Shown here: one piece after another, positions 4,170 through 17,816 of the stretch
Position numbering within the stretch: position 1 is the first letter of the stretch
How the letters are laid out: each line of letters begins with the position of its first letter
Origin: Lysobacter sp. yr284
Lineage (GTDB): Bacteria; Pseudomonadota; Gammaproteobacteria; Xanthomonadales; Xanthomonadaceae
Assembly: GCF_900107375.1 (NCBI RefSeq)
Contig: NZ_FNPT01000005.1
Location: 124,001-188,000 of the forward strand
DNA: 64,000 bases
Direction of reading: 5' to 3'
The notes under the pieces: generated by a model
The model's input: the letters and a program-made list of their open reading frames with translations, nothing else
Database searches by the model: none
Told to the model about the DNA's origin: nothing
Made by a program: the position numbers and the translations under genes

Positions 4170-4182
4170 CACTAGACAGGTC
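4170..4182 (+). promoter_or_regulatory. Putative PhnF operator, copy 1
   Basis: CACTAGACAGGTC, 83 bases before the phosphonatase-like gene. The same CACTAGACAGGT occurs at 12467 (between phnF and phnM) and 14637 (before the TonB receptor). The TAGAC core is shared with the mycobacterial PhnF site TGGTATAGACCA known from the literature. The role as operator is inferred from position and recurrence. Confidence 0.6.
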
Positions 4183-4265
4183 CACCCGCCTGTCGCCGCC
4201 GTGTCATCACCGGGTTGCGCCCGGCGCCGAAGCTCGAGGCCTGTTCCGCAGCGCCTCCGGTTTCC

Positions 4266-4955
4266 ATGGACTACCGCCTCGCCCTGTTCGATATCGCCGG
4301 CACCACCGTGTCGGATCCGGGCTTCGTCGCCCAGGCCTTCGTCGGCGCCATGGGCGCCGCCGGCCATCCGATCGACCCGGAGGCCTGCCGGGCGCTGATG
4401 GGCTACCGCAAGCCCGAGGCCATCGCCCGCCTGCTCGGCGCGGCGGCCACGCCGGCCAAGGTCGAGGCCATCCACGACGATTTCGTCGCGCGCATGCTGC
4501 GCTGCTATCGCGAGCAGCCCGGGGTGGCGCCGTTGCCGGGCGCGGAATCGATCTTCGCCCTGCTGCGCGCGCACGGCATCAAGGTCGCGCTCAACACCGG
4601 GTTCTCGCGCGACATCGCGCAGGCCATCCTCACCCGGCTCGGCTGGAGCGAACGCATCGACGCGCTGATCGCCAGCGACGAAGTGCCCGCGGGCCGGCCC
4701 GCGCCGTACATGGCGCAGGCGCTGCTGCGCCGCTTCGGCATCGACGACGCGCGCCAGTTGGTCAAGATCGGCGACACCGAGGTCGACATCGGCGAAGGCC
4801 GCAACGCCGGCGCCGGGCTGGTGGTGGCGGTGACCACCGGCGCTTTCTCCCGCGCCGAACTGGAACCCTACGCGCCCGACGCCATCGTCGATTCGCTGTT
4901 CGAACTGCCGGCGCTGCTCGGCATCGACGCCGTCGCCCGCGACGACGCCGCATGA
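4266..4955 (+). CDS. Phosphonatase-like HAD hydrolase
   Basis: A 229-residue HAD-superfamily protein of the type closest to phosphonoacetaldehyde hydrolase PhnX. Motif I is FDIAGTT with nucleophile Asp9 (DxAGT rather than DxDGT). A cap Lys49 in MGYRKPEAI sits where PhnX carries its Schiff-base lysine, Arg144 in PAGRPAPYM replaces the usual HAD lysine, and KIGDTEVDIGEG supplies the acidic motif. This is the TIGR03351-type clade, typically next to the FAD oxidoreductase found two genes on. Likely reaction: C-P cleavage of phosphonoacetaldehyde or a close analogue. Its stop overlaps the MFS start (ATGA). Putative PhnF operator 83 bases upstream. Confidence 0.85.
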   Translation: MDYRLALFDIAGTTVSDPGFVAQAFVGAMGAAGHPIDPEACRALMGYRKPEAIARLLGAAATPAKVEAIHDDFVARMLRCYREQPGVAPLPGAESIFALLRAHGIKVALNTGFSRDIAQAILTRLGWSERIDALIASDEVPAGRPAPYMAQALLRRFGIDDARQLVKIGDTEVDIGEGRNAGAGLVVAVTTGAFSRAELEPYAPDAIVDSLFELPALLGIDAVARDDAA

Positions 4956-6238
4956 AACCCGCCGCCGCGACGCCGCTGCCGCAGTGGCAGCTGACCCTGC
5001 TCGCCGGCGGCGCGGCGCTGCTGGCCTACGCCAGCATGTACGCGTTCCGCAAACCGTTCGCGGCGGCGTCGTTCCACGGCCAGCACTGGCTGGAGGTGGA
5101 CTACAAGGTCTGGCTGGTGGTGGCGCAGATCCTGGGCTACATGTGCAGCAAGTTCCTCGGCATCGGCGTGATCGGCGGCCTGCGCCGCGAGCGCCGCGCG
5201 CCGCTGATGCTGGCGCTGATCGGCAGCGCGTGGCTGGCGCTGCTGGGGTTCGCGCTGGTGCCGGCGCCCTGGAACATCGCCTTCTTGTTCCTCAACGGCC
5301 TGCCGCTGGGCATGGTCTGGGGCCTGGTCTTCAGCTACCTGGAAGGCCGCCGCACCACCGAGGCGATGGGCGCGATCCTGGCCTCGAGCTTCATCATGGC
5401 CTCCGGAATCGTGAAGAGCGTCGGCAAGTGGCTGCTGCTGTCGGGCGTCAGCGAATTCTGGATGCCGTTCCTGACCGGCCTGCTGTTCCTGCCGCCGCTG
5501 CTGATCGCGCTGCGCCTGCTCGAACGCGTGCCCGAACCCGACGCCGCCGACCGCGCCGCGCGCAGCCGGCGCCTGCCGATGAGCCGCGCTGAGCGGCGCG
5601 CGTTCGTGCGCCGGTTCCTGCCGGGGCTGGCGCTGATGATCGGCTGCTACGTGGCGCTGACCGTGGTGCGCGATTTTCGCGACAACTTCGAGGCGGAGCT
5701 GTTCGCGGACCTGGGCTACGGCAACAACGCGGGCGTGTTCGCCCTGATCGAAACGCCGGTCGCGTTGGCCGTTCTCGCGTTGACCGCGGGGCTGACGTGG
5801 TTCCGCGACAACCTGCGCGGCCTGATGGCGCTGCACGCGCTGATGTTCGCCGGCTTGCTGGTCGCCGGCATCGCCACCCTCGCCTTCCGCGCCGGCGCGC
5901 TGCCGCCGCTGTGGTGGCTGGCCCTGGTCGGCTTCGGCCTTTATCTGGCGTATGTGCCGTTCAACTGCGTGTTCTACGAGCGCCTGATCGCGACCTTCCG
6001 CGTCGCCGGCAACGTCGGCTTCCTGATGTACCTGTCCGACGCCTTCGGCTACCTGGGCAGCGTCGCGGTGCTGCTGGCCAAGGAATTCTCCGGCCTGCAG
6101 CTGTCGTGGACCGACTTCTTCGCCCACATCGTGCTCGCCCTGAGCGCGCTCGGCGGCGCCTGCCTGCTGGCCTCGGCCGCGTACTTCCACCATCGCGCCG
6201 GCCGCCGCGGCCGCGCGCCGGCGCTGGCGCCGGCCTGA
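4952..6238 (+). CDS. DUF5690 family MFS transporter
   Basis: A 428-residue polytopic protein with about twelve hydrophobic segments. The N-terminal AYASMYAFRKPFAAASF is typical of organophosphate/phosphonate-type and DUF5690 major facilitator carriers. A central cytoplasmic loop (around residues 190-220, RSRRLPMSRAERRAF) separates the two halves. It overlaps the hydrolase by four bases and is followed 45 bases later by the FAD oxidoreductase, which suggests that it brings the substrate of those enzymes across the inner membrane. The exact substrate is inferred, probably an aminoalkylphosphonate. Confidence 0.8.
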   Translation: MKPAAATPLPQWQLTLLAGGAALLAYASMYAFRKPFAAASFHGQHWLEVDYKVWLVVAQILGYMCSKFLGIGVIGGLRRERRAPLMLALIGSAWLALLGFALVPAPWNIAFLFLNGLPLGMVWGLVFSYLEGRRTTEAMGAILASSFIMASGIVKSVGKWLLLSGVSEFWMPFLTGLLFLPPLLIALRLLERVPEPDAADRAARSRRLPMSRAERRAFVRRFLPGLALMIGCYVALTVVRDFRDNFEAELFADLGYGNNAGVFALIETPVALAVLALTAGLTWFRDNLRGLMALHALMFAGLLVAGIATLAFRAGALPPLWWLALVGFGLYLAYVPFNCVFYERLIATFRVAGNVGFLMYLSDAFGYLGSVAVLLAKEFSGLQLSWTDFFAHIVLALSALGGACLLASAAYFHHRAGRRGRAPALAPA

Positions 6239-6283
6239 GCGGGCGCTCGCGCCGCGCGTCCGCAGCCGCTTCCACCACTCCGC

Positions 6284-7456
6284 ATGAACAACACCCGCAT
6301 GAACAACCGTGATTCCGCCCTCGTCGTCGGCGCCGGCATCGTCGGCCTGGCCATCGCCCGCGCGCTCGCCGTGCGCGGCCACCGCGTCACCGTGCTGGAG
6401 CGCTACGACCGCGCGGTCGGCGCCTCGGTGCGCAACTTCGGCATGATCTGGCCGATCGGCGTGACCAACGGCGCCGCCTACCAGCGCGCGCTGCGCTCGC
6501 GCGCGATCTGGCAGGAGGTGATCGACGGCGCCAAGCTGTGGCACGACCCCTGCGGTTCGCTGCACGTGGCGTACGCGCAGGACGAATTCGACGTGCTGGC
6601 GCAGTACGCCGAGGCCAACCGCGCGCTGCGGCCGTGCGCGCTGCTCGGCCGCGACGAGGCGCTGGCGAAATCGCCGGCGCTGGTCGCCGACGGCCTGCGC
6701 GGCGCGCTGTTCAACCGCGACGAGTTGCTGGTCGATCCGCGCGAGGCGCTCGCCGCGCTGCCGGGCTATCTGCACGAACGCTACGGCGTCGAGTTCCATT
6801 GGCGCACGCCGGTCACTTCGGTGGAGACCGGCCGCGCGCATTCGGGCACGCGCCGGTTCGAGGCCGACCGGGTGTTCGTGTGCAGCGGCCCGGAGTTCGA
6901 ACAACTGTTCCCGCAGCTGTACGCGGCCGCGCCGCTGACCCGCTGCAAGCTGCAGATGCTGCGGCTGGCGCCGCCGGCCGACGGCCTGCGCCTGGGCGCG
7001 GCGCTGTGCGGCGGGCTGTCGCTGGTGCACTACGCCGGTTTCCAGCAGGCCGCCGACGTGGCGCCGCTGCGCGCGCGCTACCAGGCCCAGTACGGCGAGC
7101 TGATCGAACTGGGCATCCACGTGATGGCCGCGCAGAACGGCCGCGGCGAGATCACCGTCGGCGATTCGCACGCCTACGCCCACACCCACGACCCGTTCGA
7201 CGAACAGGCGATCAACGCGCGCGTGCTCGACTACCTCGGCGGCTTCCTGCGCCTGCGCGAGCCGCGTGCGCTGCAGACCTGGCACGGCATCTATCCCAAG
7301 CTCACCGACGGCAGCAGCGAGTTCGTCGCCGAGCCCGCGCCGGGCGTGACCGTCGTCAACGCGGTCGGTGGCGGCGGGCTGGGCATGACCCTGAGCTTCG
7401 GCCTGGCCGAGGAGATCGTCGACGGCCGCTACGGCGCGGTGCGCCGCGCGGCCTGA
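6284..7456 (+). CDS. FAD-dependent oxidoreductase of the phosphonate-associated type (TIGR03364-like)
   Basis: A 390-residue DAO-family flavoprotein. The dinucleotide motif GAGIVG is at residues 17-22 and the ribose-binding Glu in VLERY near 39. The C-terminal part has the VNAVGGGGLGMTLSFG flavin-binding segment. The clade is known for sitting next to phosphonatase-like hydrolases, and related enzymes oxidise 2-aminoethylphosphonate or its N-methyl form to phosphonoacetaldehyde. No PhnW aminotransferase is in the window, so this enzyme could supply the aldehyde. ATG at 6284; a second ATG at 6299 is equally placed. A strong hairpin follows the gene. Confidence 0.82.
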   Translation: MNNTRMNNRDSALVVGAGIVGLAIARALAVRGHRVTVLERYDRAVGASVRNFGMIWPIGVTNGAAYQRALRSRAIWQEVIDGAKLWHDPCGSLHVAYAQDEFDVLAQYAEANRALRPCALLGRDEALAKSPALVADGLRGALFNRDELLVDPREALAALPGYLHERYGVEFHWRTPVTSVETGRAHSGTRRFEADRVFVCSGPEFEQLFPQLYAAAPLTRCKLQMLRLAPPADGLRLGAALCGGLSLVHYAGFQQAADVAPLRARYQAQYGELIELGIHVMAAQNGRGEITVGDSHAYAHTHDPFDEQAINARVLDYLGGFLRLREPRALQTWHGIYPKLTDGSSEFVAEPAPGVTVVNAVGGGGLGMTLSFGLAEEIVDGRYGAVRRAA

Positions 7457-7501
7457 GCGGCGCGCGCCGGGCGCGGCGTCGCGCCGCGCCGGCAAGTCCA
7501 T

Positions 7502-7539
7502 GCGCGGGCCATGGCGGCCTGACCCGCCATGGCCCGCGC
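7502..7539 (+). terminator. Strong hairpin ending the phosphonatase unit
   Basis: A perfect 16-base stem (gcgcgggccatggcgg / ccgccatggcccgcgc) with a six-base loop lies 45 bases past the oxidoreductase stop. There is no T-run, so if it stops transcription it does so without a classical U tract. The rest of 7457-7754 is GC-rich with no gene I can support. Confidence 0.5.
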
Positions 7540-7754
7540 CGTCCGGTTCGCTGGCTCCCCCGTCGAACCGTCCGCACCCACGACGCCGCGCGCGCTGCGC
7601 GCCGGCGAGCGCCGCGCCGGACCATCCCTGGCCGGCGCGGGGCGGGCGGCACGTCCCTGTGCCTGGCGCTCCGTCCGCCGCGTCCGCGTCCGGTCCGTGC
7701 GGCCCCGCGCGGGGCCCCGGAACGGCGCGGCGGCGCGGAGCCTTGCGCGGGGGC

Positions 7755-8279
7755 TTACCTGCCCCCTTCCACGACCGAACCGGGCATCGATTCGATCGTC
7801 TTGATCAGCAGTTCGTGCTCGCGCATGAACTCGCCGATGCGGTACTTCTCGCGCAGTTCGCGCACGCCTGCGTCGTAGTTGCGCACCGCCTCGATGCTCC
7901 AGTTGCCGCGGTCGATCGGGCCGCTGCCCTCGGGGCTGGCCACGGCCATGCCGCTGAAGCCGGCGTGGCGCTGGCACAGGCCGACGCCCGGGTTGGGGTT
8001 GTACTGCCAGCCCTGGCCGGTCATGGCGTTGTACTGGGCCAGGCAGTCGGCGTACTCGTAGGCGGCGATGAAGTGGAAATCCCACTGCCCGGTGCTGTTG
8101 TTCCAGCGCCGCACGTGCACGGTGTAGGCGTAGTAGCCGCCCCACGGCCCCGGCGACGGCACCGGGTTGGTCGTGTGGATGACGGTGGTGCCGCCGAGCA
8201 TGCGCGCCGAGGCCGGCGCGGCGGTGCCCAGGCCGACGGCGGCGATCAACGCGGCCGGTGCGAGCCAATGGCGAATCAT
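7755..8279 (-). CDS. Secreted protein of unknown function
   Basis: 174 residues from an ATG preceded by GGGGAGGAGC, which decides this start over a longer frame. The N-terminus MIRHWLAPAALIAAVGLG followed by APASA is a clear signal peptide. The mature part is rich in Tyr, Trp and Asn (PWGGYYAYT, GQWDFHF, GWQYNPNPG) with only two cysteines, and ends with a charged helix (REKYRIGEFMREHELLIK). I do not recognise the family. It is divergent from the next secreted gene at 8648. Confidence 0.7.
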   Translation of the reverse strand: MIRHWLAPAALIAAVGLGTAAPASARMLGGTTVIHTTNPVPSPGPWGGYYAYTVHVRRWNNSTGQWDFHFIAAYEYADCLAQYNAMTGQGWQYNPNPGVGLCQRHAGFSGMAVASPEGSGPIDRGNWSIEAVRNYDAGVRELREKYRIGEFMREHELLIKTIESMPGSVVEGGR

Positions 8280-8647
8280 CGTGAAGCTCCTCCCCTTGCG
8301 GTGAATGGTGGACGACGACGGTGGCGGCGATGGCGCGGCGCGGAGCGGCGGTCCCCACCGCCGTGCGTATCGTTGGTGCCAGCCCGCGCCGTCCATTTAG
8401 CGCCGTGGCACCGCCGGGGGCGAGGAACAAGCCGGGTGCGAACCGGGACACGGCGGGAACGATTCGGCCGCCGCGCGCGCCGCCCGCGGGCGTAGTGCGT
8501 TTGCGGTCACGAAATCAGCGCGGCAGGGGTCAAACTTCGCCGTAAAACGACCCGTTTTGTACCCGCGAATTACTTGGACGCGGTTTGCGGCGGCTCCTAG
8601 GCTGGCTCCACATCGCGCTCCCCGCGATGGGCCCAGGAGAACCACCG
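8280..8647. other. Divergent intergenic region between two secreted-protein genes
   Basis: These 368 bases separate genes reading left (start 8279) and right (start 8648), so promoters for both are expected here. The stretch 8510-8600 is less GC-rich than its surroundings (cgtaaaacgacccgttttgt). I see no coding region and cannot assign specific promoter elements. Confidence 0.45.
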
Positions 8648-9139
8648 ATGCGCCAGACTTCCAAAGGAATGCTCCGCCATGGCAGCGGCCTCGCCGCGTT
8701 CGCCTTCGCCGCCGTCCTGACCGCCGGCAGCGCGTTCGCCCACCAGACCAATCCGCAGTGCTACGTCGACGGCGCGCAGGTGCGCCCGGTGGCGGCGTTC
8801 GCGTTCACGTCGCGGCAGGTCGCCAACTTCCATGCCGACCTGATGCGCCGGCCGCCGGGTTCGTGCCCGGCCGGGCCGGGCGGGAATGTGGCGAAGTCGT
8901 GCGGCCAGGTCGATCACTGGCACGTCGCCACGATCATGGCCGACGAGTACTGCGCCGGCCTGCAGGGCGCCGCGCGCGCCGCCGGGGGGCGCCCGGTTGC
9001 CGAGGTGAACGCGCCGGGCACCTATTTCGGCGACAACCACCATCTCAAGTACACCTATCGCGCCGACAGGCCCAGCGACGTGGTGTTGAGCGGCATGTGC
9101 GTGATCTGCATCACCATCCAGGCGCCGCCGTCGAAGTGA
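8648..9139 (+). CDS. Secreted Cys-rich protein of unknown function
   Basis: 163 residues from an ATG preceded by CCAGGAGAACC; the longer frame from 8585 lacks a ribosome site. The signal peptide runs through residues 1-35, ending ...AGSAFA before HQTNPQCYVDG. The mature protein has six cysteines (QCY, GSC, KSC, EYC, MCVIC), suggesting disulfides, and several His (DHWHVAT, DNHHLKY). No family is recognised. It lies in the accessory region between the phosphonate units and is convergent with the TPR/PAS gene. Confidence 0.7.
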   Translation: MRQTSKGMLRHGSGLAAFAFAAVLTAGSAFAHQTNPQCYVDGAQVRPVAAFAFTSRQVANFHADLMRRPPGSCPAGPGGNVAKSCGQVDHWHVATIMADEYCAGLQGAARAAGGRPVAEVNAPGTYFGDNHHLKYTYRADRPSDVVLSGMCVICITIQAPPSK

Positions 9140-9166
9140 CGCCGCCGCAACCGCGCCCGCCGCCGC

Positions 9167-11320
9167 TCAGACCAGCGCGTTGCGGCGGGTGTAGGCCAGC
9201 ACCGCATCGACATGCCGCTGCAGTTCGCCGCGCACCGTTTCCTCCAGCGCGCACTCGGCCAGCACGTAGTAGCCCGAACGCAGCACGTCGCGCCAGCGCG
9301 GCTGGCGCGGCAGCTTGGACAGGCTCAGGTAGCGCTCCATCGCGCGCGCGCGCAGCCGGCCGTCGTCGACGGTGACCCGCCAGATGCGGCTTTTCTCGGC
9401 CAGCTCCAGCCGGCCCTGGCCAGTGCTGCGCTCCCAGGCCTCGACCACCGCCAGCATCAGTTCGACCAGGGCGCGGCGGAACGACTGGCGCAGCGCCTCG
9501 TCGCCGGAAGCGGCCGGCTCGACGTCCAGCGCCAGGGGCTCGGCCGGCCCGGCGCCGTCGTGGACGAGGTCCGCCGCCGGCTCGGCGACGGCCGCCGCCG
9601 CGCGTTGCAGGCCGAGCACCAGCGAGCCCTCGCCCTGCCCGCTCTCGCTCAACTGCCCCTGCAGCCGTTCGCCGCCGAGCGCGAACGCCAGCCGCTGCGG
9701 CGCCGAGGATTCCTCCAGCCGTTCCAGCGCCTGGGCGAACCCGCGCGCGTCGTCGGCGCCGAGCAACTCGCCGAAGCCGCGCCCGACCGGCGCGGTCGCG
9801 GCGCCGGGCCGCAGCAGTTCGCTGGCGGCGCGGTTGCCGGCGAGCACCTGGCCGGCGCCGTCGAGCACCAGCACCGCGTCCTCGCGGCTGTCCAACGCCG
9901 CCTGCAGGCGCGCGCGGTCGACGCCGAGTTCGGCCGCGGCGCGGCGGTAGTAGTCGATCTCCTCGTCCAGGCGCGCGCGCCGCGCCGCCTCGGCGACCCG
10001 CGCGCGCTGCTGCCGGCGCAGGAAGAACACGGTCAGCCCCAGCAGCGCGGCCAGCGCCGAGACCACGGTCAGCCACAGCGCGAGCGTGCGCACCTGGTTG
10101 CCCGAGGCCAGCGCGGCGATGGTGCGGTCGCGTTCGGCGGTTTCGAAGCGCACCTGCAGCCAGCGCGTCTCGCGGTCGTAGCGGGCTTCGCGCAGCGCCT
10201 GCGCGGCGCGCTCGGATTCGCGCAGCGCCGCCATCGCCTGCGGCCATTCGCCCAGCGCCTCGTGCGCGGCGGCCAGCTCGGCCAGCAGCGCCGGGCGGTC
10301 GCTGTCGTGCGCGGCCAGCGCGCGCAGCGCGGCGCTGGCGCGCTCGCGCGCCACGCCCGGCAGGCCGCGCAGGCGCGCCACCCGCGCGGCCTGCAACTGC
10401 AGCGGCGCCGGCGCGGTCTCGCCCTCGGCGGCGACGACCGCGGCCAGCCCGCTGTCGACCCAGCGCGAGGCCGCGGCGACGTCGCCGCGCAGCAACGCCG
10501 CGCGCGCCAGTTCCGCGTCGGTGCGCTGCTGGTACTTGCGGTTGCCGTCCTCGACCATCTGCGCGCGCGCCTGCAGCAACAGCGCCTCGCCGCCGGCCGC
10601 ATCGCCGCTGTCGAGCAACGCCGCGCCCCAGGATTCCATGGTGTGCGCGGCCTCGATCCGGTTGCCGGCGGCGAGGTGGACATCGCGCGCCTGGCGGTAA
10701 TAGCGCACTGCGGCGGCGAGGTCGCCCTGGTCGCGGTAGATCTCGGCGAGGTTGTTGAGCGGGCGCGCGGATTCGCCGCCGGGAATCTTGCGCAGCAACG
10801 CCAGGCTGGCGGTCTGCGCCTGCAGCGCGCCGCGCACGTCGCCCAGCCGCAGCAGCGCAGCGCCGAGGTTGTTCCAGTTCTTGCCCTGGGCCAGGCGGTC
10901 CTCCGAGCGCTCGGCCGCGGCCAGGGCGCGCTTGAACCAGTGCAGCGCCTGCAGCGGGCATTCGCGCCGGAATTCGATCACGCCGCGGCGCCGCGCCAGT
11001 TCCTGCGCCGTCGTCGGCCCGGGATCGGCGCCGGCCACCGCTTCGGCGCAGTCCATCGCCCGCGAAGCCTCGGCGTAGCGATGCGTTTCCACCAACGTGC
11101 GGTTGCGCTCGTACAACGCCGCGAGCAGCGATGGGTTCGCCGCGCCGGGATTGAGCTCGTATTCGCGCAGGCACTGCGCCGGCTCCGGCAATACCCGCGC
11201 CGCCGCTTCGGCGCAGACCGGCGCATCGGCCTGCGTCGAGACACCGGCGGCGGCGGCGCCGCACAGCGTCGCCAGCAACGCGGCCAGCGCCGCCCCTCGC
11301 ACGAACGATTCCTTGGACAC
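9167..11320 (-). CDS. TPR / transmembrane / PAS membrane protein with unrecognised C-terminal domain
   Basis: 717 residues from a GTG preceded by AGGGAG at six bases; an ATG at 11410 gives a longer form without such a site. A signal peptide (FVRGAALAALLATLCGAAAAG) leads into a periplasmic helical-repeat region with TPR signatures (NNLGAALLRLGD, NNLAEIYRDQGDLAAAVRYYRQA). One TM helix lies near residues 405-430. A cytoplasmic coiled coil and a PAS-like segment (REDAVLVLDGAGQVLAGN, about 470-510) follow. The last 115 residues (ELMLAVVEAWERSTG, MERYLSLSKLPRQPRW) resemble no catalytic or DNA-binding domain I know. The layout suggests signal sensing; function is not known. Confidence 0.7.
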   Translation of the reverse strand: MSKESFVRGAALAALLATLCGAAAAGVSTQADAPVCAEAAARVLPEPAQCLREYELNPGAANPSLLAALYERNRTLVETHRYAEASRAMDCAEAVAGADPGPTTAQELARRRGVIEFRRECPLQALHWFKRALAAAERSEDRLAQGKNWNNLGAALLRLGDVRGALQAQTASLALLRKIPGGESARPLNNLAEIYRDQGDLAAAVRYYRQARDVHLAAGNRIEAAHTMESWGAALLDSGDAAGGEALLLQARAQMVEDGNRKYQQRTDAELARAALLRGDVAAASRWVDSGLAAVVAAEGETAPAPLQLQAARVARLRGLPGVARERASAALRALAAHDSDRPALLAELAAAHEALGEWPQAMAALRESERAAQALREARYDRETRWLQVRFETAERDRTIAALASGNQVRTLALWLTVVSALAALLGLTVFFLRRQQRARVAEAARRARLDEEIDYYRRAAAELGVDRARLQAALDSREDAVLVLDGAGQVLAGNRAASELLRPGAATAPVGRGFGELLGADDARGFAQALERLEESSAPQRLAFALGGERLQGQLSESGQGEGSLVLGLQRAAAAVAEPAADLVHDGAGPAEPLALDVEPAASGDEALRQSFRRALVELMLAVVEAWERSTGQGRLELAEKSRIWRVTVDDGRLRARAMERYLSLSKLPRQPRWRDVLRSGYYVLAECALEETVRGELQRHVDAVLAYTRRNALV

Positions 11321-11648
11321 GACCCGCTCCCTGTTCCCCCTGCCGGAAGCTTTGCCGATCCGGGCGCGAAGCGGAAGCGACGCAGGCAGGCGCAGGCCGC
11401 GCCGGAACATGAACCAGCGCGCGAGCGATCACATTCGTTATGGACTTCAATCGCAATCGCGCGAATCGGGTGCGAAGCGCACACAATTCGCACACCGCTG
11501 TTCAGTGGCGAACGGGCCGGCCTCGGCGCCGGCTCGCGGCGTGGTCGGAAAACCGCCGGCGCGCCGCCGCGCATCGGCGGGAACGGACTTCAGTGCGGCG
11601 CGGCATGGCGCCCGGCGCGCGACGAACCGGACTGCGCCCCGGCCCCGC
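11321..11648. other. Intergenic region between phnF and the TPR/PAS gene
   Basis: 328 bases downstream of phnF (minus strand) and upstream of the TPR/PAS gene. A less GC-rich stretch near 11430-11490 (cacattcgttatggacttcaa) is the likeliest place for the promoter of the TPR/PAS gene. No gene or clear terminator is seen. Confidence 0.4.
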
Positions 11649-12443
11649 TCAAGCTTCGTTGGTGACCATCAGCTGCACCCAATCCCCGGCGAACGAGGTC
11701 ACCCCGAACTGCACCGGCGCGCCCTGGGTGTCGACATTGAGCGAATGCACGCACAGCACCGGCCGCCGCGTGGATTGGCCGAGCACGCGCGCGACTTCGG
11801 CCGCGGGCAGCCGCGCCATCACCGCGGTGTGCTTGCGCAGGTAGTCGCGCACGCCGAACTCTGCCAGGGTGCGGGTCACAGAGAGCTTGTCCGCGAACAC
11901 CTTGTCCAGCCCGGGAAACCGCGCGGCCGGGAACCAGGCCTGGCTGTGGTCGACCGTGCGTCCCTCGACCTCGCTGGAATACACCACCCGATGCACGCGC
12001 TCGCCCGCGAGCAGGCCCAGCGAGCGCGCCACCAGCCGCGGCGGCGCCTGGGTGCCGGCCTCGATCAGGCGATAGCGGCTTTCCACGTTGAGATCGTGCA
12101 TCGCCTTGCCGAAGCGGGTGCGCCGGCCGATCGGGTAGTGGTACGGATGCTCCTGCACGAAGCTGCCGCGGCCGGTCTCGGTGCGCAGGAAGCCGCGTTC
12201 CTCCAGCGCCTCGATCGCGCGGCGCACGGTGTGGCGGTTGACGCCGAAACGCTTGGCCAGATCGAACGCGGACGGCAGCTTGTCGCCTTCGCTGAGCTGG
12301 CCGGCGCGGATGTCCTTGAGCAGCGCGGTCTCGATCTGCTGCCACAGCGGCATCGCGGCGTCGCGCTGGGCCGGCTCCGGGGCGGCCGGCTCGCACGCGG
12401 CCTGCCCGGCAACGGTGCGCTGTGCGGCGGCGGGGGATGTCAT
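11649..12443 (-). CDS. phnF: GntR/HutC-family phosphonate regulator PhnF
   Basis: 264 residues from an ATG preceded by GGAGGT. The N-terminal winged helix (residues about 35-100) reads PLWQQIETALLKDI, LPSAFDLAKRFGVNRHTVRRAI and GRGSFVQ, classic for GntR. The C-terminal UTRA effector domain includes HRVVYSSEVEG and SHAxxFPAARFPGL-like segments. YHYPIGRRTRF after the HTH is characteristic of PhnF. It is divergent from phnM with a putative operator (12467) only 24 bases before its start, so self-repression is likely. The effector is unknown; a phosphonate or its catabolite is inferred. Confidence 0.88.
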   Translation of the reverse strand: MTSPAAAQRTVAGQAACEPAAPEPAQRDAAMPLWQQIETALLKDIRAGQLSEGDKLPSAFDLAKRFGVNRHTVRRAIEALEERGFLRTETGRGSFVQEHPYHYPIGRRTRFGKAMHDLNVESRYRLIEAGTQAPPRLVARSLGLLAGERVHRVVYSSEVEGRTVDHSQAWFPAARFPGLDKVFADKLSVTRTLAEFGVRDYLRKHTAVMARLPAAEVARVLGQSTRRPVLCVHSLNVDTQGAPVQFGVTSFAGDWVQLMVTNEA

Positions 12444-12466
12444 ACAACCTCCATCTGCACTTGGTT

Positions 12467-12479
12467 CACTAGACAGGTC
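12467..12479 (+). promoter_or_regulatory. Putative PhnF operator, copy 2 (phnF-phnM)
   Basis: CACTAGACAGGTC between divergent phnF and phnM, 24 bases before phnF and 100 before phnM. It is identical over 13 bases to the copy at 4170. Binding by PhnF is inferred. Confidence 0.65.
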
Positions 12480-12579
12480 GCATCGCGCGTCCGTCCCCAT
12501 CAGAACCCGCCGGCGTTGCATGACGGTGACAAGCGCCGATCCATCCGTCCACCGCTCGCCCGTCCGTCGCCGCGCCCGA

Positions 12580-13722
12580 ATGCCCCTGCACGAACTGCTG
12601 CTCGACAACGCCCGCCTGGTCCTGCCCGACCGCATCGTCCACGGCCACCTGCGCGTGGCCGACGGCGTGATCCGGGAGATCGGCGAAGGCCGCCTGCGCA
12701 CGCCGGCGGCGCGCGACTGCGAGGGCGACTACCTGCTACCGGGGCTGGTCGAACTGCACACCGACAATCTGGAAAAGCACCTGCTGCCTCGGCCCGGCGC
12801 GCATTGGCCGGCGGCCGCGGCGGTGCGCGCGCACGATGCGCAACTGCTCGCCGCCGGCATCGCCACCGCGCTCAACGCGATCTCGGTCGGCGAGGAAGAA
12901 GCCGAGCAGGCGGTCGACCCGCAAACCGTGCTGGCCGCGCTCGCCCAGGCGCGCGCGGACGGCGGCCTGCGCATCGAACACGCCGTGCACCTGCGCTGCG
13001 AACTGCCCTGCCCCGATCTTCCGCAGCGCCTGCAGCCCTTGCTCGGCGCGCCGCAGCTGCGGCTGCTGTCGCTGATGGACCACACCCCGGGCCAGCGCCA
13101 GTTCCACGACCTCGAACGCTACCGCGCCTACAGCGCGCGCCACGGCACCGCCCGCGACGACGCCGGCTTTCGCGCCCACGTCCGCCACCTGCAGGACCTG
13201 CAGCACCGCCACGCCGCCGGCCACCGCCGCCTGGTGCTGGCGATGGCGCGCGAACGCGGCCTGCCGCTGGCCAGCCACGACGATTCCGACCTCGGCCACA
13301 TCGCCGAAGCGGTCGAAGCCGGCGCGCGCATCGCCGAATTCCCGGTCAACCTCGCCACCGCCCTGGCCGCGCGTGCGGCCGGCCTGAGCGTGCTGGCCGG
13401 CGCGCCGAACCTGGTGCGCGGCGGCTCGCACAGCGGCAACGTCGCCGCGAGCGAGTTGGCGCGCGCCGGCGCGCTCGACGCGCTGTCCTCCGACTACGTT
13501 CCCGCCAGCCTGCTGTTGGCCGCCTTCCAGCTCGGCGCCTGGGAGGCCATCGGCCTGCCGCGCGCGGTGGCGATGGTGACCCACGCCCCCGCGCGCGCCG
13601 CCGGTTACGACGACCGCGGCGCGCTGGCGGCCGGGCAGCGCGCCGATGTGTTGCGGGTGCGGGTGGTGCGGGGGTTTCCGCAACTGGAGGCGGTGTGGAT
13701 CGCGGGGCAGCGGCGTTATTGA
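12580..13722 (+). CDS. phnM: Alpha-D-ribose 1-methylphosphonate 5-triphosphate diphosphatase
   Basis: 380 residues, matching the usual PhnM length. It belongs to the amidohydrolase superfamily and in C-P lyase pathways releases diphosphate from ribose 1-phosphonate 5-triphosphate. Diagnostic segments are GLVELHTDNLEKHLLPRPG (metal site), EHAVHLRCELP, LSLMDHTPGQRQF, LASHDDSD and GAPNLVRGGSHSGN with LSSDYVPASL. The catalytic metal ligands are all present. No other C-P lyase gene (phnGHIJKL) is in the window, so its partner enzymes are elsewhere or it works on another substrate. It is divergent from phnF and shares its operator. Confidence 0.93.
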   Translation: MPLHELLLDNARLVLPDRIVHGHLRVADGVIREIGEGRLRTPAARDCEGDYLLPGLVELHTDNLEKHLLPRPGAHWPAAAAVRAHDAQLLAAGIATALNAISVGEEEAEQAVDPQTVLAALAQARADGGLRIEHAVHLRCELPCPDLPQRLQPLLGAPQLRLLSLMDHTPGQRQFHDLERYRAYSARHGTARDDAGFRAHVRHLQDLQHRHAAGHRRLVLAMARERGLPLASHDDSDLGHIAEAVEAGARIAEFPVNLATALAARAAGLSVLAGAPNLVRGGSHSGNVAASELARAGALDALSSDYVPASLLLAAFQLGAWEAIGLPRAVAMVTHAPARAAGYDDRGALAAGQRADVLRVRVVRGFPQLEAVWIAGQRRY

Positions 13723-13774
13723 TCCGGGGCGTTCGTTGCTTGGTTGGGCTGCGTTCGGCTTGCGATCCTCGGTG

Positions 13775-13828
13775 CTGTTGCCCTTGCTGTTGCTGTTGCC
13801 CTTGCTGTTGCTGTTGCCCTTGCTGTTG
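13775..13828 (+). repeat. Three perfect 18-base tandem repeats
   Basis: The unit ctgttgcccttgctgttg occurs three times without change at 13775, 13793 and 13811. It lies just after phnM, at the outer end of the large inverted repeat. No gene is associated with it. Confidence 0.9.
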
Positions 13829-14121
13829 CTCTTTCCTTTGCCGTTCGCCCTGACGCAGCCCCGCCCGAGGCCCACGTTCCGCAGACCCGGAGGGCGCGCG
13901 CATGGATGCGCGCGTGCGCCGTAGGGGCAGGATGCCCCTTACGGCGCATCCCCGCGCCGGGTGCTGGACCTAGTGGCTCGTGACTTTAGACAAGCGTTTT
14001 TCTTTGGTTACTTTCTTTTGGCGCGCTGCCAAAAGAAAGTAACTCGGCCGCTTGCGGACGAAAGCTGTTGATTGTCGCTTGTCGTCGCTCGTCAACGACG
14101 GCAGTGCAGTTGCGTATCCGA

Positions 14122-14220
14122 CTGTAGGAGCGGCGCGAGCCGCGACCGCGACAACGCAGCTACGACGAAACGTTCGCAATCGCTGCGATGGCACGGTCGC
14201 GGCTCGCGCCGCTCCTACAG
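14122..14220. repeat. REP pair at the centre of the inverted duplication
   Basis: ctgtaggagcggcgcgagcc... at 14122-14148 and its exact reverse complement at 14194-14220 form a 27-base perfect inverted repeat separated by 45 bases. The same repeat type recurs at 29909-30147. Confidence 0.9.
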
Positions 14221-14636
14221 GGGGCGTGCCGCGGTGGGTTCGGCTTTTACTGTGCGTCCGCCTGACGACAAGCGAAGATCCAAAGCTTCCGTCCGCAAGC
14301 GGCCGGGTCACTTTCTTTGTCCAAAGCCACAAAGAAAGTAACCAAAGAAAAGGCATTGCTGTTTCGAATCAAGAGCCACTAGGTCCAGCACCGGGCGCGG
14401 GGCCGCGCCATAAGGGGCATCCTGCCCCATGGCGCGCGTGCGCATCCATGCGCACGCCCTACGGGGCTGCGGAACATATTCTTCGCGTGGAGTTTCGTCC
14501 GAGCGAACGGCAACGACAAAAACAACAACTCAGCAACAGCCACGGCCGTAGCAACGGCAACGAAAGTATCGCCCTCCGTCGCCAACGCCCATTCAGCCCT
14601 CACCATCCTTCGCTTCCACCCGCCAATCCCCCGAAG

Positions 14637-14649
14637 CACTAGACAGGTA
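14637..14649 (+). promoter_or_regulatory. Putative PhnF operator, copy 3 (TonB receptor)
   Basis: CACTAGACAGGTA, 93 bases before the TonB receptor start; identical over 12 bases to the sites at 4170 and 12467. It ties the receptor to the phosphonate regulon by inference. Confidence 0.6.
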
Positions 14650-14742
14650 CTCCACGCAGTCCGCATCGCGCGCCCGCGCCTTCATATCGCCTCGTTGTAA
14701 TGCCGCCCCATCGCCCCCGCGGCGCGCATTCCACGAGATCCC

Positions 14743-16989
14743 ATGACCGCCCCCACCCGTACTCCCCTGGCGCTGGCCCTGTTCGCCGTGCTGCCCCTGG
14801 CCGGCCACGCCGCCGCGCCTGCGGCCGATGCGGCCGCCGCCGGCGCGCCGCTGGATCGCGGCGACGCCGCCACGCTCGATACGATCTCGGTGATCGGCCA
14901 CCGCGAAACCCGCCAGGTCCAGCGCATCGGCCAGATCGAACTGCAGGCGGTCGCGCCCGGCACCAATCCGGTCAAAGTGTTGGAGAAGCTGCCCGGCGTG
15001 CATTTCGTCAGCGCCGATCCGTGGGGCAGCTACGAATGGTCGAACCGCATCGCCATCCGCGGTTTCGCCCAGAACCAGCTCGGCTACGCGCTCGACGACA
15101 TCCCGCTCGGCGACAATAGCTACGCCAACAACAACGGCCTCTCGCCCAACCGCGCGATCCTGCCGGAGAACGTGGCCGAACTCGAACTCGCCCAGGGCGC
15201 CGGCGCGCTGCGCATTCCCTCCACCAGCAACCTCGGCGGTGCGCTGTTGCTGCATTCGGCCGATCCGTCCGCCGAGTTCGGCGCGCGCGCCGGCCTGGCG
15301 TTCGGCGACAACGCCACCCTGCGCAGCTTCGTGCGCGTGGACACCGGCGAGCGCAACGGTTTCAGCGCCTACGTCTCCGGCATGCGCAACGAAGCCGACC
15401 GCTGGAAGGGTGCGGGCGTGCAGGAACAGCAGCAGTTCAACGGCAAGGCCGTGTACCAGTGGGACCAGGGCCGCGTCGCGCTGTGGCTGTCGACCTCGCG
15501 CCGCAACGAGACCGACGATCCGGATCTCTCGCTCGACCTGATCCGCCGCTGCGGCTACGGCTGGGACAACTACGCGCCCGACTGGCAACGCGCGCTCGAC
15601 GCCGCCAACGGCCGCTTCAGCGGTTGCGTCAAGACCAAGGACGACGCCTATTACCTGGCCCGCGGCCTGCGCGACGACGACCTGGCGGCGCTGTCGGGCG
15701 AATTCGACCTGAGCGACGCGCTGCGCCTCAACGCCACCGGCTATTACCACCGCAATCAAGGACAGGGCCACTGGTTCACCCCGTACATCAACTCGCCGAC
15801 GATTCCGATGGCACTGCGCATCACCAGCTACGACATCGAACGCAGCGGCCTCAACGCGCGCCTGAGCTACACCGTGGGCCAACACACGCTTGAAGGCGGG
15901 GTGTGGTTCGAGGACAGCGCGCACGGCGCCGGCCGCAGCTTCGTCGACATCGACGGCCCGATCGACGACCAGCGCTTCTTCGATCAGGACGAGTTCGCCC
16001 AGCGTCTGTTCCGCCAGCGCTTCGACACCCGCACCCGCCAGTGGTACCTGCAGGACACGATGCGGCTGTTCGACGAGCGCCTGACCGTCAACGCCGGTTT
16101 CAAGGGCCAGGACGTGGTCACCGACGGCACGGTGGTGGTGCCCGGCCGCGCCGGCGGCCGCCTGGGCGCGCGCGACAGTTTCCTGCCGCAGCTGGGCGTG
16201 GCCTGGCAGTTGAACGAACGCAGCGACGTGTTCGCCAACTACGCCGAAAACCAGGCCGCGTTCCGCCCCGGCGTCAACGGCGCCTGGTCGCTGACCCAGG
16301 CCTCCTTCGACCTCAGCCGCGACCGCGCCAGGCCCGAGCAGTCGCAAACCCTGGAGCTGGGCTGGCGCTACGGCGACGACCGCTACCAGCTCTCCACCAC
16401 GGTCTACGGGGTGAACTTCGAGGACCGGCAACTGGTGATCGTGCCCTGCCCGGGCGTGGTCAGCTGCCCGAACCAGTTCGCCAACGTCGGCAAGGCGCGC
16501 ACCCTCGGCGGCGAGGTCGCGTTCGTGTGGACGCCGGCCGAACGCGTGCGCTGGCTGGCCAGCTACGCCTACAACGATTCGCAGTACCGCTCCGACTACG
16601 TCGCCGGCGGCCAGCGCGTGCCGGTGCGCGGCAAGCGGATGGTCGACACGCCCAAGCAGTTGTTCGCGACCGAACTGAGCTACGGCATCGGCGATGTCGA
16701 ACTGCGCCTGGGCGGCAAGTACACCGGCAAGCGCTACTACACCTACAGCAACGACGCCGGGACCGATGCGTTCTGGCTGTGGGACGCCGGGGTGAACTGG
16801 AACCGGCGCGACCTGGGCCGGATCAAGTCGCTGCGGGTCGGGCTCAACGTCTACAACCTGCTCGACAAGACCTACATCGCCACCCTCGGCAGCAACGGCT
16901 TTCGCGACTACGACCCGCAGGGGACGTTCCAGACCCTGCTGACCGGCGCGCCGCGGCAGTGGTTCGTGTCGATGGATGCGCAGTTCTGA
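14743..16989 (+). CDS. TonB-dependent outer-membrane receptor, probable phosphonate receptor
   Basis: 748 residues. A signal peptide (residues 1-23, ALALFAVLPLAGHA) precedes a TonB-box-like TISVIGHRE and a plug domain with NPVKVLEKLPGVHFVSAD, IAIRGFAQNQLGY and ELAQGAGALR. The rest is a 22-strand-type barrel ending in QWFVSMDAQF, with the C-terminal Phe expected for Bam-dependent insertion. An NVYNLLDKTY motif near the end is typical of the family. The preceding PhnF-type motif suggests uptake of a phosphonate or a phosphonate-bearing molecule, but a siderophore or other ligand cannot be excluded. Confidence 0.85.
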   Translation: MTAPTRTPLALALFAVLPLAGHAAAPAADAAAAGAPLDRGDAATLDTISVIGHRETRQVQRIGQIELQAVAPGTNPVKVLEKLPGVHFVSADPWGSYEWSNRIAIRGFAQNQLGYALDDIPLGDNSYANNNGLSPNRAILPENVAELELAQGAGALRIPSTSNLGGALLLHSADPSAEFGARAGLAFGDNATLRSFVRVDTGERNGFSAYVSGMRNEADRWKGAGVQEQQQFNGKAVYQWDQGRVALWLSTSRRNETDDPDLSLDLIRRCGYGWDNYAPDWQRALDAANGRFSGCVKTKDDAYYLARGLRDDDLAALSGEFDLSDALRLNATGYYHRNQGQGHWFTPYINSPTIPMALRITSYDIERSGLNARLSYTVGQHTLEGGVWFEDSAHGAGRSFVDIDGPIDDQRFFDQDEFAQRLFRQRFDTRTRQWYLQDTMRLFDERLTVNAGFKGQDVVTDGTVVVPGRAGGRLGARDSFLPQLGVAWQLNERSDVFANYAENQAAFRPGVNGAWSLTQASFDLSRDRARPEQSQTLELGWRYGDDRYQLSTTVYGVNFEDRQLVIVPCPGVVSCPNQFANVGKARTLGGEVAFVWTPAERVRWLASYAYNDSQYRSDYVAGGQRVPVRGKRMVDTPKQLFATELSYGIGDVELRLGGKYTGKRYYTYSNDAGTDAFWLWDAGVNWNRRDLGRIKSLRVGLNVYNLLDKTYIATLGSNGFRDYDPQGTFQTLLTGAPRQWFVSMDAQF

Positions 16990-17132: not shown

Positions 17133-17816
17133 ATGCCCCAGCCGCTTCCCCGCATCGCCGTCCTCGCATCGGGCCGCGGCAGCAACCTGCAGGCCGTGCT
17201 CGACGCGATCGCCGCCGGCACCCTGGCCGGCGAGGTGGTCGGGGTGTTCTCCGACAAGCCCGCCGCGGCGGCCCTGCAACGGGTCGCGCCGGCGCGGCGC
17301 TGGTCGGCCGCGGCCAAGGCCTACCCCAGCCGCGAGGCGTTCGACGCCGACCTGGCCGAGGCCGTCGCCGCCGCGCGCCCGGACTGGATCCTCTGCGCCG
17401 GCTACCTGCGCATCCTCGGCCACGCCTTCGTCGAGCGCTTCCGCGGCCGCATGATCAACATCCACCCCTCGCTGCTGCCCAAGTACCGCGGCCTGCACAC
17501 CCACGCGCGGGCGATCGAGGCCGGCGACGGCGAGCACGGCGCCAGCGTGCATTTCGTCATTCCCGAGCTGGACGCCGGCACGGTGATCGCACAGGCCGTG
17601 GTGCCGGTGCATGCCGGCGATACGCCGGAAACCCTGGCCGAACGTGTCCTGGGCGTGGAACACCCGCTGCTGCTGGCGGTCATGCGCCTGGCCACCTCGG
17701 GCCGACTGGCTGAACACGGCGCAACCGTCCAGGTCGATGGTCATCCGCTATTTACGCCGCTGCGTTTAGATTGCGCCGGCCGTCTGACCGATCCCGTCAG
17801 CGGCGTCGCGGCCTGA
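17133..17816 (+). CDS. purN: Phosphoribosylglycinamide formyltransferase
   Basis: 227 residues, close to the family norm. It transfers the formyl group of 10-formyl-THF to GAR in purine synthesis. Family marks are IAVLASGRGSNLQAVLDAI at residues 7-25, GYLRILG, the catalytic region INIHPSLLPKYRGLHTH with Asn, His and the following ASVHFVIPELDAGTVIAQ with Asp. ATG at 17133 starts at the conserved N-terminus; the longer open frame upstream is the shadow of the receptor gene. It probably leads an operon with the two DUF3108 genes. Confidence 0.97.
   Translation: MPQPLPRIAVLASGRGSNLQAVLDAIAAGTLAGEVVGVFSDKPAAAALQRVAPARRWSAAAKAYPSREAFDADLAEAVAAARPDWILCAGYLRILGHAFVERFRGRMINIHPSLLPKYRGLHTHARAIEAGDGEHGASVHFVIPELDAGTVIAQAVVPVHAGDTPETLAERVLGVEHPLLLAVMRLATSGRLAEHGATVQVDGHPLFTPLRLDCAGRLTDPVSGVAA

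Follow-up and report, generated by a model that had tools for sequence, protein, structure and literature searches.

A conserved PhnF-linked gene island in Lysobacter, probably for the use of aminophosphonates

The stretch of DNA analysed here, which we call the window, comprises 64,000 nucleotides of Lysobacter sp. yr284 (NZ_FNPT01000005.1:124001-188000; genome of 6.25 Mb in 46 contigs). It carries an island of six genes, which encode a phosphonatase-like hydrolase, a carrier of the DUF5690 family, an amine oxidase of the PbfD type, the regulator PhnF, a PhnM-type amidohydrolase and a TonB-dependent outer-membrane receptor. The island is real, conserved and linked to PhnF. With their shared control site, the six genes probably let Lysobacter, a soil bacterium, import, oxidise and split natural aminophosphonates for phosphorus and nitrogen, and we put at roughly three in four the probability that the island is a PhnF-controlled system for the use of 2-aminoethylphosphonate (AEP) and N-methyl-AEP or a near relative. 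The chemistry is for the most part a published pathway, and its core is not new, since PbfD and PhnX together make up that pathway. What is new here is the DUF5690 carrier family, the placing of a receptor under the same site, and a lone PhnM.

Profile searches confirmed that all six genes named in an earlier note on this DNA lie where it placed them and belong to the families it gave. The first operon, on the plus strand, opens with the phosphonatase-like HAD hydrolase (4266-4955). Its gene overlaps by 4 bases that of the DUF5690 carrier, a protein of the major facilitator superfamily (MFS; 4952-6238; PF18943, 539.7 bits against a cut-off of 25), which is followed by the gene for the PbfD-type oxidase (6284-7456, start codon uncertain), dependent on flavin adenine dinucleotide. 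The earlier note had called the oxidase "TIGR03364-like"; at 408 bits, against a cut-off of 285.1, it is a full member of that family. For the hydrolase the term phosphonatase-like is fitting, in that the catalytic positions of PhnX that were checked are kept: in a MAFFT alignment, D9-I-A-G-T and K49 fall on the PhnX motif and the lysine of PDB chain 2iof, a lysine that is arginine in 2ioh. Its nearest profile, however, is TIGR03351 (207 bits, a little below the cut-off of 218.9), and it stands far from true PhnX (TIGR01422, 109.4 bits, cut-off 220) and outside that family as the profile defines it. PhnF, encoded on the minus strand (11658-12443), is a GntR/UTRA regulator of the HutC type with both a GntR and a UTRA domain (TIGR02325, 233.9 bits, cut-off 156.8). 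It is transcribed divergently from phnM on the plus strand (12580-13722, with an alternative in-frame start at 12520; TIGR02318, 424.1 bits, cut-off 390.55). The receptor gene (14743-16989, plus strand) encodes Plug and barrel domains.

Each of the three plus-strand units is preceded by the same 12-base motif, as the earlier note had reported. The sequence CACTAGACAGGT occurs on the plus strand at 4170-4181, upstream of the phnX-like/DUF5690/pbfD operon, at 12467-12478, in the divergent phnF-phnM intergenic region, and at 14637-14648, upstream of the receptor, and these three sites are candidate PhnF operators. They are the only exact matches in the whole genome, against about 0.23 expected from the window's base composition; one further site has a single mismatch. 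Across 20 genomes of the genus, the pattern SACTAGACAGGT has 30 matches, 29 of them inside the island and none in the 10 genomes that lack it, and the reversed control pattern has 3. The only match outside the island, in genome G202 (C1:5704128), lies in 4.5 kb without a match to any of nine queried proteins (island, flanking and PhnX/PhnW). The core CTAGACAGGT is found in three copies in each of ten Lysobacter islands; in G206, where the first site reads AACTAGACAGGT, two sites are detected by SACTAGACAGGT and three by the core. The distance from the core to the ATG of the phnX-like gene is 94 bases, and the alignment from motif to ATG needs no gap in any of the 10 Lysobacter promoters. The core is invariant while its flanks vary, at three sites in the 10 Lysobacter genomes and at two of the three in both genomes of a second genus described below. 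For comparison, the HutC-type operator consensus is GTMTAKAC (PMC4494728, in the portion available), with which the island site, (C/G)ACTAGAC, agrees at 6 of 8 positions, the left GT being lost. That the motif is just an ordinary -35 box for sigma-70 was rejected, as no matching -10 is evident by eye and the flanks vary.

The earlier note had proposed, as a check, that conservation of the whole set be sought in relatives. The family TIGR03364 is present in 10 of the 20 genus genomes, and DUF5690, PhnM and an orthologue of the receptor are present in exactly those 10, in each of which all six genes are clustered and the sites are shared. The remaining 10 have no PbfD, DUF5690, PhnM or receptor orthologue; PhnX-like and PhnF were not searched in these. 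The window's PhnM is 85% identical to that of L. enzymogenes ATCC 29487, a strain that carries the island, 82% to that of Lysobacter sp. Root690 and 79% to that of Lysobacter sp. ISL-50. The surroundings are conserved too: the island is flanked by purM (741-1805) and purN (17133-17816), both named by eye, and purN follows the receptor in all nine other Lysobacter loci, while purM precedes the island in the five whose stretch reached that far.

The island also extends beyond the genus. PhnM was found in 6 of 198 genomes of the family, two of which (G029 and G124) belong to another genus. G029 carries the phnX-like, DUF5690, pbfD, phnF, phnM and receptor genes within about 8 kb and without inserted genes, and here the pbfD and DUF5690 genes overlap by 4 bases. 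Its sites lie before the phnX-like gene and in the phnF-phnM intergenic region; the one before the receptor is weaker in form, CCTAGACAAC. G124 agrees with G029 except that its island is split across two contigs. PhnM and DUF5690 were not found in two other genomes of this second genus in the draw.

From the gene families and the published pathway we infer the following route. The receptor would carry an aminophosphonate, or a conjugate of one, across the outer membrane, and DUF5690 would carry the aminophosphonate across the inner membrane. PbfD would then deaminate it oxidatively to phosphonoacetaldehyde, turning O2 into H2O2 and releasing ammonia or methylamine, and the PhnX-like HAD enzyme, via a lysine Schiff base, would split the C-P bond to give acetaldehyde and phosphate. 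Acting at the three SACTAGACAGGT sites, PhnF would repress the three units, and probably itself too, until a phosphonate or an intermediate is present. The earlier note had set out five steps (uptake across each membrane, oxidation to an aldehyde, C-P cleavage and regulation). That scheme stands insofar as the carrier resembles organophosphate antiporters and the oxidase and hydrolase families fit; PhnM has no place among its steps.

The first operon may also be subject to phosphate control. A Pho-box-like direct repeat, CTGTCGCCGCCGTGTCAT, lies on the plus strand at 4190-4207, just after the first candidate operator and before the operon. The genome holds three exact copies of the pattern, and 14 matches with up to one mismatch, versus 5 for a control; all 12 promoters aligned, from two genera, retain its form TGTC-N7-TGT(C/A)AT. 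The second of the exact copies is flanked by a Porin_O_P gene and a response regulator, and the third is near a gene without an evident link to phosphate. A by-eye look at the aligned promoters revealed no convincing Pho box before phnM or the receptor. As a phosphate control element the repeat is suggestive only.

The nearest known system is the PbfD2-PhnX pathway for AEP and N-methyl-AEP (Zangelmi et al. 2023, PMC10590968, in the portion available). PbfD enzymes convert N-methyl-AEP to phosphonoacetaldehyde, PbfD2 also accepts AEP, and PbfD replaces PhnW where PhnW is absent; the published cluster has no phnW and, like the island, combines a TIGR03364/PbfD oxidase with a PhnX-kind C-P hydrolase. 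The island differs in that its hydrolase is closer to TIGR03351, in the added DUF5690, PhnM and TonB-dependent receptor, and in its probable control by PhnF, and the main text of that paper gave no match for PhnM, TonB or MFS. The earlier note's claim that these parts are not usually described together is thus sustained for DUF5690, PhnM and the receptor only. Family searches with nine proteins of the locus identified no PhnW, and no genome-wide search for it was made. With the C-P lyase system (phnFGHIJKLM) the island has PhnF and PhnM in common, but none of the 20 genus genomes has PhnJ, and C-P cleavage is assigned to the HAD enzyme. Among the titles listed in the literature searches, none describes this gene set in Lysobacter; two papers mention Lysobacter together with phosphonate and aminoethylphosphonate, and both are by title on other subjects.

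PhnJ was detected in none of the 20 genus genomes, although the E. coli positive control was, and to that extent the C-P lyase core is missing, as had been claimed earlier; PhnG, H, I and L were not searched. In a draw of 398 genomes from the phylum, PhnM was found in 91 (E up to 1e-40) and PhnJ exceeded its cut-off in 82. Nine of the 91 PhnM-bearing genomes lack PhnJ, and three of the nine are the window's genome, G029 and G124. In a tree of 69 rows, the 12 PhnMs of the Xanthomonadaceae form one clade (100/99), which lies inside a 46-row group with 31 PhnM rows from C-P lyase systems and three orphans (100/100). Five PhnM motifs that were checked are intact in all 12, and PhnM identity within the genus is 79-94%. 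In its known reaction PhnM releases pyrophosphate from ribosyl phosphonate triphosphate (PMC10574752, in the portion available), and the searches just described found no partner for that reaction. A search of PhnM against solved structures gave no match at E 0.01.

The association of PhnM with PbfD is restricted, among the loci examined, to Lysobacter, one sister genus and Gloeocapsa, because other PhnM loci gave no PbfD matches. Among ten PhnM loci, the seven from outside Lysobacter (three Burkholderiales and four Firmicutes, some with short flanks) yielded tblastn matches only to PhnM and PhnF. No PbfD, PhnX or DUF5690 was found at 19 PhnM loci away from PhnJ (six in PhnJ-less genomes and 13 second copies) or at one C-P lyase locus. 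In another genome without PhnJ, G525 (L093), PhnM stands beside a 2H-phosphoesterase-like gene and a PhnN-like kinase, neighbours that were named by eye. A relic of C-P lyase was rejected as the whole explanation of the island: PhnJ is missing from all 20 genomes, yet PhnM is kept with its own site.

The AlphaFold2 model of DUF5690 (mean predicted local distance difference test score, pLDDT, 86.9) matched SLC37A4/G6PT in 13 of the first 15 Foldseek matches. Residues R33-K34, Y63, K67, R240 and D244 are invariant in 16 of 16 aligned sequences, with a spacing near that of G6PT R28-K29, Y60, K64, K240 and D245 when matched by position. Against solved structures the DUF5690 profile gave, by sequence, a single weak match of another kind (E 0.067) and no match to GlpT at E 0.1. 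Like DUF5690, the AEP permease AepP of Pseudomonas putida is an MFS protein in a phosphonate context; AepP is of the organophosphate-antiporter kind that DUF5690 resembles, and it is 27.75% identical to GlpT (PMC8316502, in the portion available). Since the DUF5690 profile finds no GlpT, the two are probably distinct families. DUF5690 resembles organophosphate:phosphate antiporters in its predicted fold and lies beside phosphonate genes in two phyla, which makes it a candidate aminophosphonate carrier. In the literature searched, no paper was found containing the word DUF5690.

DUF5690 occurs in 10 of the 398 phylum genomes, seven of them outside the Xanthomonadaceae. The gene stands beside PbfA and a weak Phn-HD match in G581, beside phospholipase C in G492, beside GDPD and a metallophosphatase in G332 and beside PhoX in G506; G352 offers only a receptor and G489 only an esterase. 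In G554 (L061) it is accompanied by PhnX, TIGR03364, a Phn-HD-like oxygenase, a phosphocholine-specific phospholipase C and an Asp/Asn beta-hydroxylase-like gene, a cluster that is perhaps for phosphonolipid head groups.

The receptor scores 123.2 bits against the siderophore-receptor model TIGR01783, under its cut-off of 223.5. Its nine orthologues in the genus, at 85-93% identity, are confined to the island-bearing genomes (10 of 20 in all), and a paralogue of 49-51% identity is found elsewhere in all 20. Two paralogues in the window's own genome, L127 and L128, are 51% and 47% identical to it.

Relatives of these genes also occur together on plasmids. The first-ranked plasmid match of PbfD (46%) is in Gloeocapsa sp. 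PCC 7428 (NC_019746), where an AEP ABC transporter, PhnM, a hydrolase of the TIGR03351 type (169.6 bits, under the cut-off), TIGR03364 and PhnF lie together. This locus shares PhnM, the PhnX-like enzyme, TIGR03364, PhnF and a repeated intergenic site with TAGACA with the Lysobacter island, but has the ABC transporter instead of DUF5690 and the receptor. Its 17-base repeat TGTATAGACATCTAGAT, containing GTATAGAC, is found between phnM and the phnX-like gene and again ahead of the transporter genes, and holds both the HutC-type consensus (PMC4494728) and TAGACA. The plasmid is not among the matches listed for PhnJ (12 of 215 PhnJ-bearing plasmid records). In Novosphingobium sp. EMRT-2, DUF5690 is accompanied by TIGR03364, PhnX, a UTRA regulator nearest PhnR (under the cut-off), a TonB-dependent receptor and TonB. 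Bacteroides finegoldii and Parabacteroides distasonis have DUF5690-phnX-phnW, as does Phocaeicola massiliensis by tblastn, and in all four plasmid records that hold DUF5690 it is paired with PhnX. At the six TIGR03364 plasmid loci examined besides that of Novosphingobium (Gloeocapsa, Asticcacaulis, Hymenobacter, Rhizobium, Comamonas and Bartonella) a PhnX or HAD gene adjoins or is near in every case, and DUF5690 is annotated in none.

Several observations weigh against an island for AEP and N-methyl-AEP. The ten island-bearing Lysobacter are possibly one clade, so that the co-occurrence of the genes would not represent ten independent events. The candidate operators are half-palindromes. No similarity to the window's receptor could be detected in that of the second genus; one of the own-genome receptor paralogues has a Fur-family gene about 2.6 kb away, a hint of metal-chelate cargo, and the other is near a sodium:dicarboxylate symporter and a Porin_O_P gene. 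In VIA-align, many unrelated MFS carriers score almost like SLC37A4 against DUF5690, and the seven DUF5690 loci outside the Xanthomonadaceae have phosphonate genes at two, phosphoester hydrolases at three and neither at two. PhnM is without an explained role in the island. The hydrolase lacks a 13-residue stretch of the PhnX cap and, because it also falls under the cut-off of TIGR03351 and far under that of PhnX, its substrate may differ from that of PhnX. A substrate such as 1-hydroxy-2-aminoethylphosphonate or another N-alkyl AEP, with the hydrolase cleaving a substituted phosphonoacetaldehyde, would suit an enzyme closer to TIGR03351 than to PhnX. We consider another 2-aminophosphonate of this kind unlikely, given that the tested PbfD enzymes use N-methyl-AEP, and PbfD2 AEP as well (PMC10590968), and that the checked catalytic positions of PhnX are kept.

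It is also conceivable that the first operon and PhnF alone constitute the phosphonate system, with PhnM and the receptor merely located beside it, left over from a C-P lyase operon or forming a unit for metal-chelate uptake. Without PhnJ there is no known way to make or use the PhnM substrate, PhnM persists without PhnJ elsewhere too (the nine genomes in 91, this one and two relatives included), and the Fur-family neighbour of the receptor paralogue points the same way. This explanation is nonetheless doubtful: in all 10 island-bearing Lysobacter genomes phnM and the receptor gene are each preceded by a separate copy of the site, the second genus retains PhnM and also a receptor, albeit of a different kind, the PhnM motifs and sequence are conserved, and PhnM lies beside PhnX-like and PbfD genes in Gloeocapsa. 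That the motif arose by chance or is some general promoter element, and that the genes are neighbours by accident, is largely refuted and very improbable. The sites are not full palindromes and TAGACA resembles, by eye, a -35 hexamer, but three exact copies against 0.23 expected, the concentration of 29 of 30 matches in the island over 20 genomes, and the invariant core within varying flanks in two genera are hard to reconcile with chance. A further possibility, tentative and rather unlikely, would give PhnM a role: the island would serve conjugated aminophosphonates, the receptor importing a larger AEP-bearing molecule and PhnM, as a stand-alone hydrolase, freeing AEP before PbfD and the PhnX-like enzyme act. 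Nucleotide-, ribosyl- or other phospho-linked AEP would be examples of such conjugates, and are proposed just as tentatively. The use of AEP and N-methyl-AEP, or a near relative, under PhnF control is the reading we prefer.

Three genes of other kinds are interposed between pbfD and phnF (7755-11410): one of 213 amino acids on the minus strand, one of 184 on the plus strand and a TPR-PAS gene of 747 on the minus strand. They are probably not part of the system, since no such genes separate pbfD from phnF in the compact island of the second genus, and 7755-11410 contains no copy of the motif. The 747-residue TPR protein (9167-11410, minus strand) has a weak PAS match and is 62-91% identical in nine other Lysobacter loci; a domain search found no kinase domain in it. 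The gap between phnM and the receptor (13770-14560) contains a large imperfect inverted-repeat structure with arms of 103, 69, 70 and 48 nt that are 77-87% complementary. An 18-base tandem repeat, TGCTGTTGCCCTTGCTGT, marks its left end, and the 48-nt arm begins CTGTAGGAGCGGC.

Among reduced-phosphorus nutrients aminophosphonates are common, and Lysobacter lives on debris and on other organisms. Through three shared sites, the island links a known aminophosphonate pathway with uptake across both the outer and the inner membrane, and it gives DUF5690 a testable function. With PhnM found apart from PhnJ, an independent role for PhnM is open to direct test. Should the island prove to serve conjugated aminophosphonates, PhnM would gain a second recurrent role, found in a cyanobacterium as well as in Lysobacter, and phosphonate carriers would gain a new family in DUF5690.

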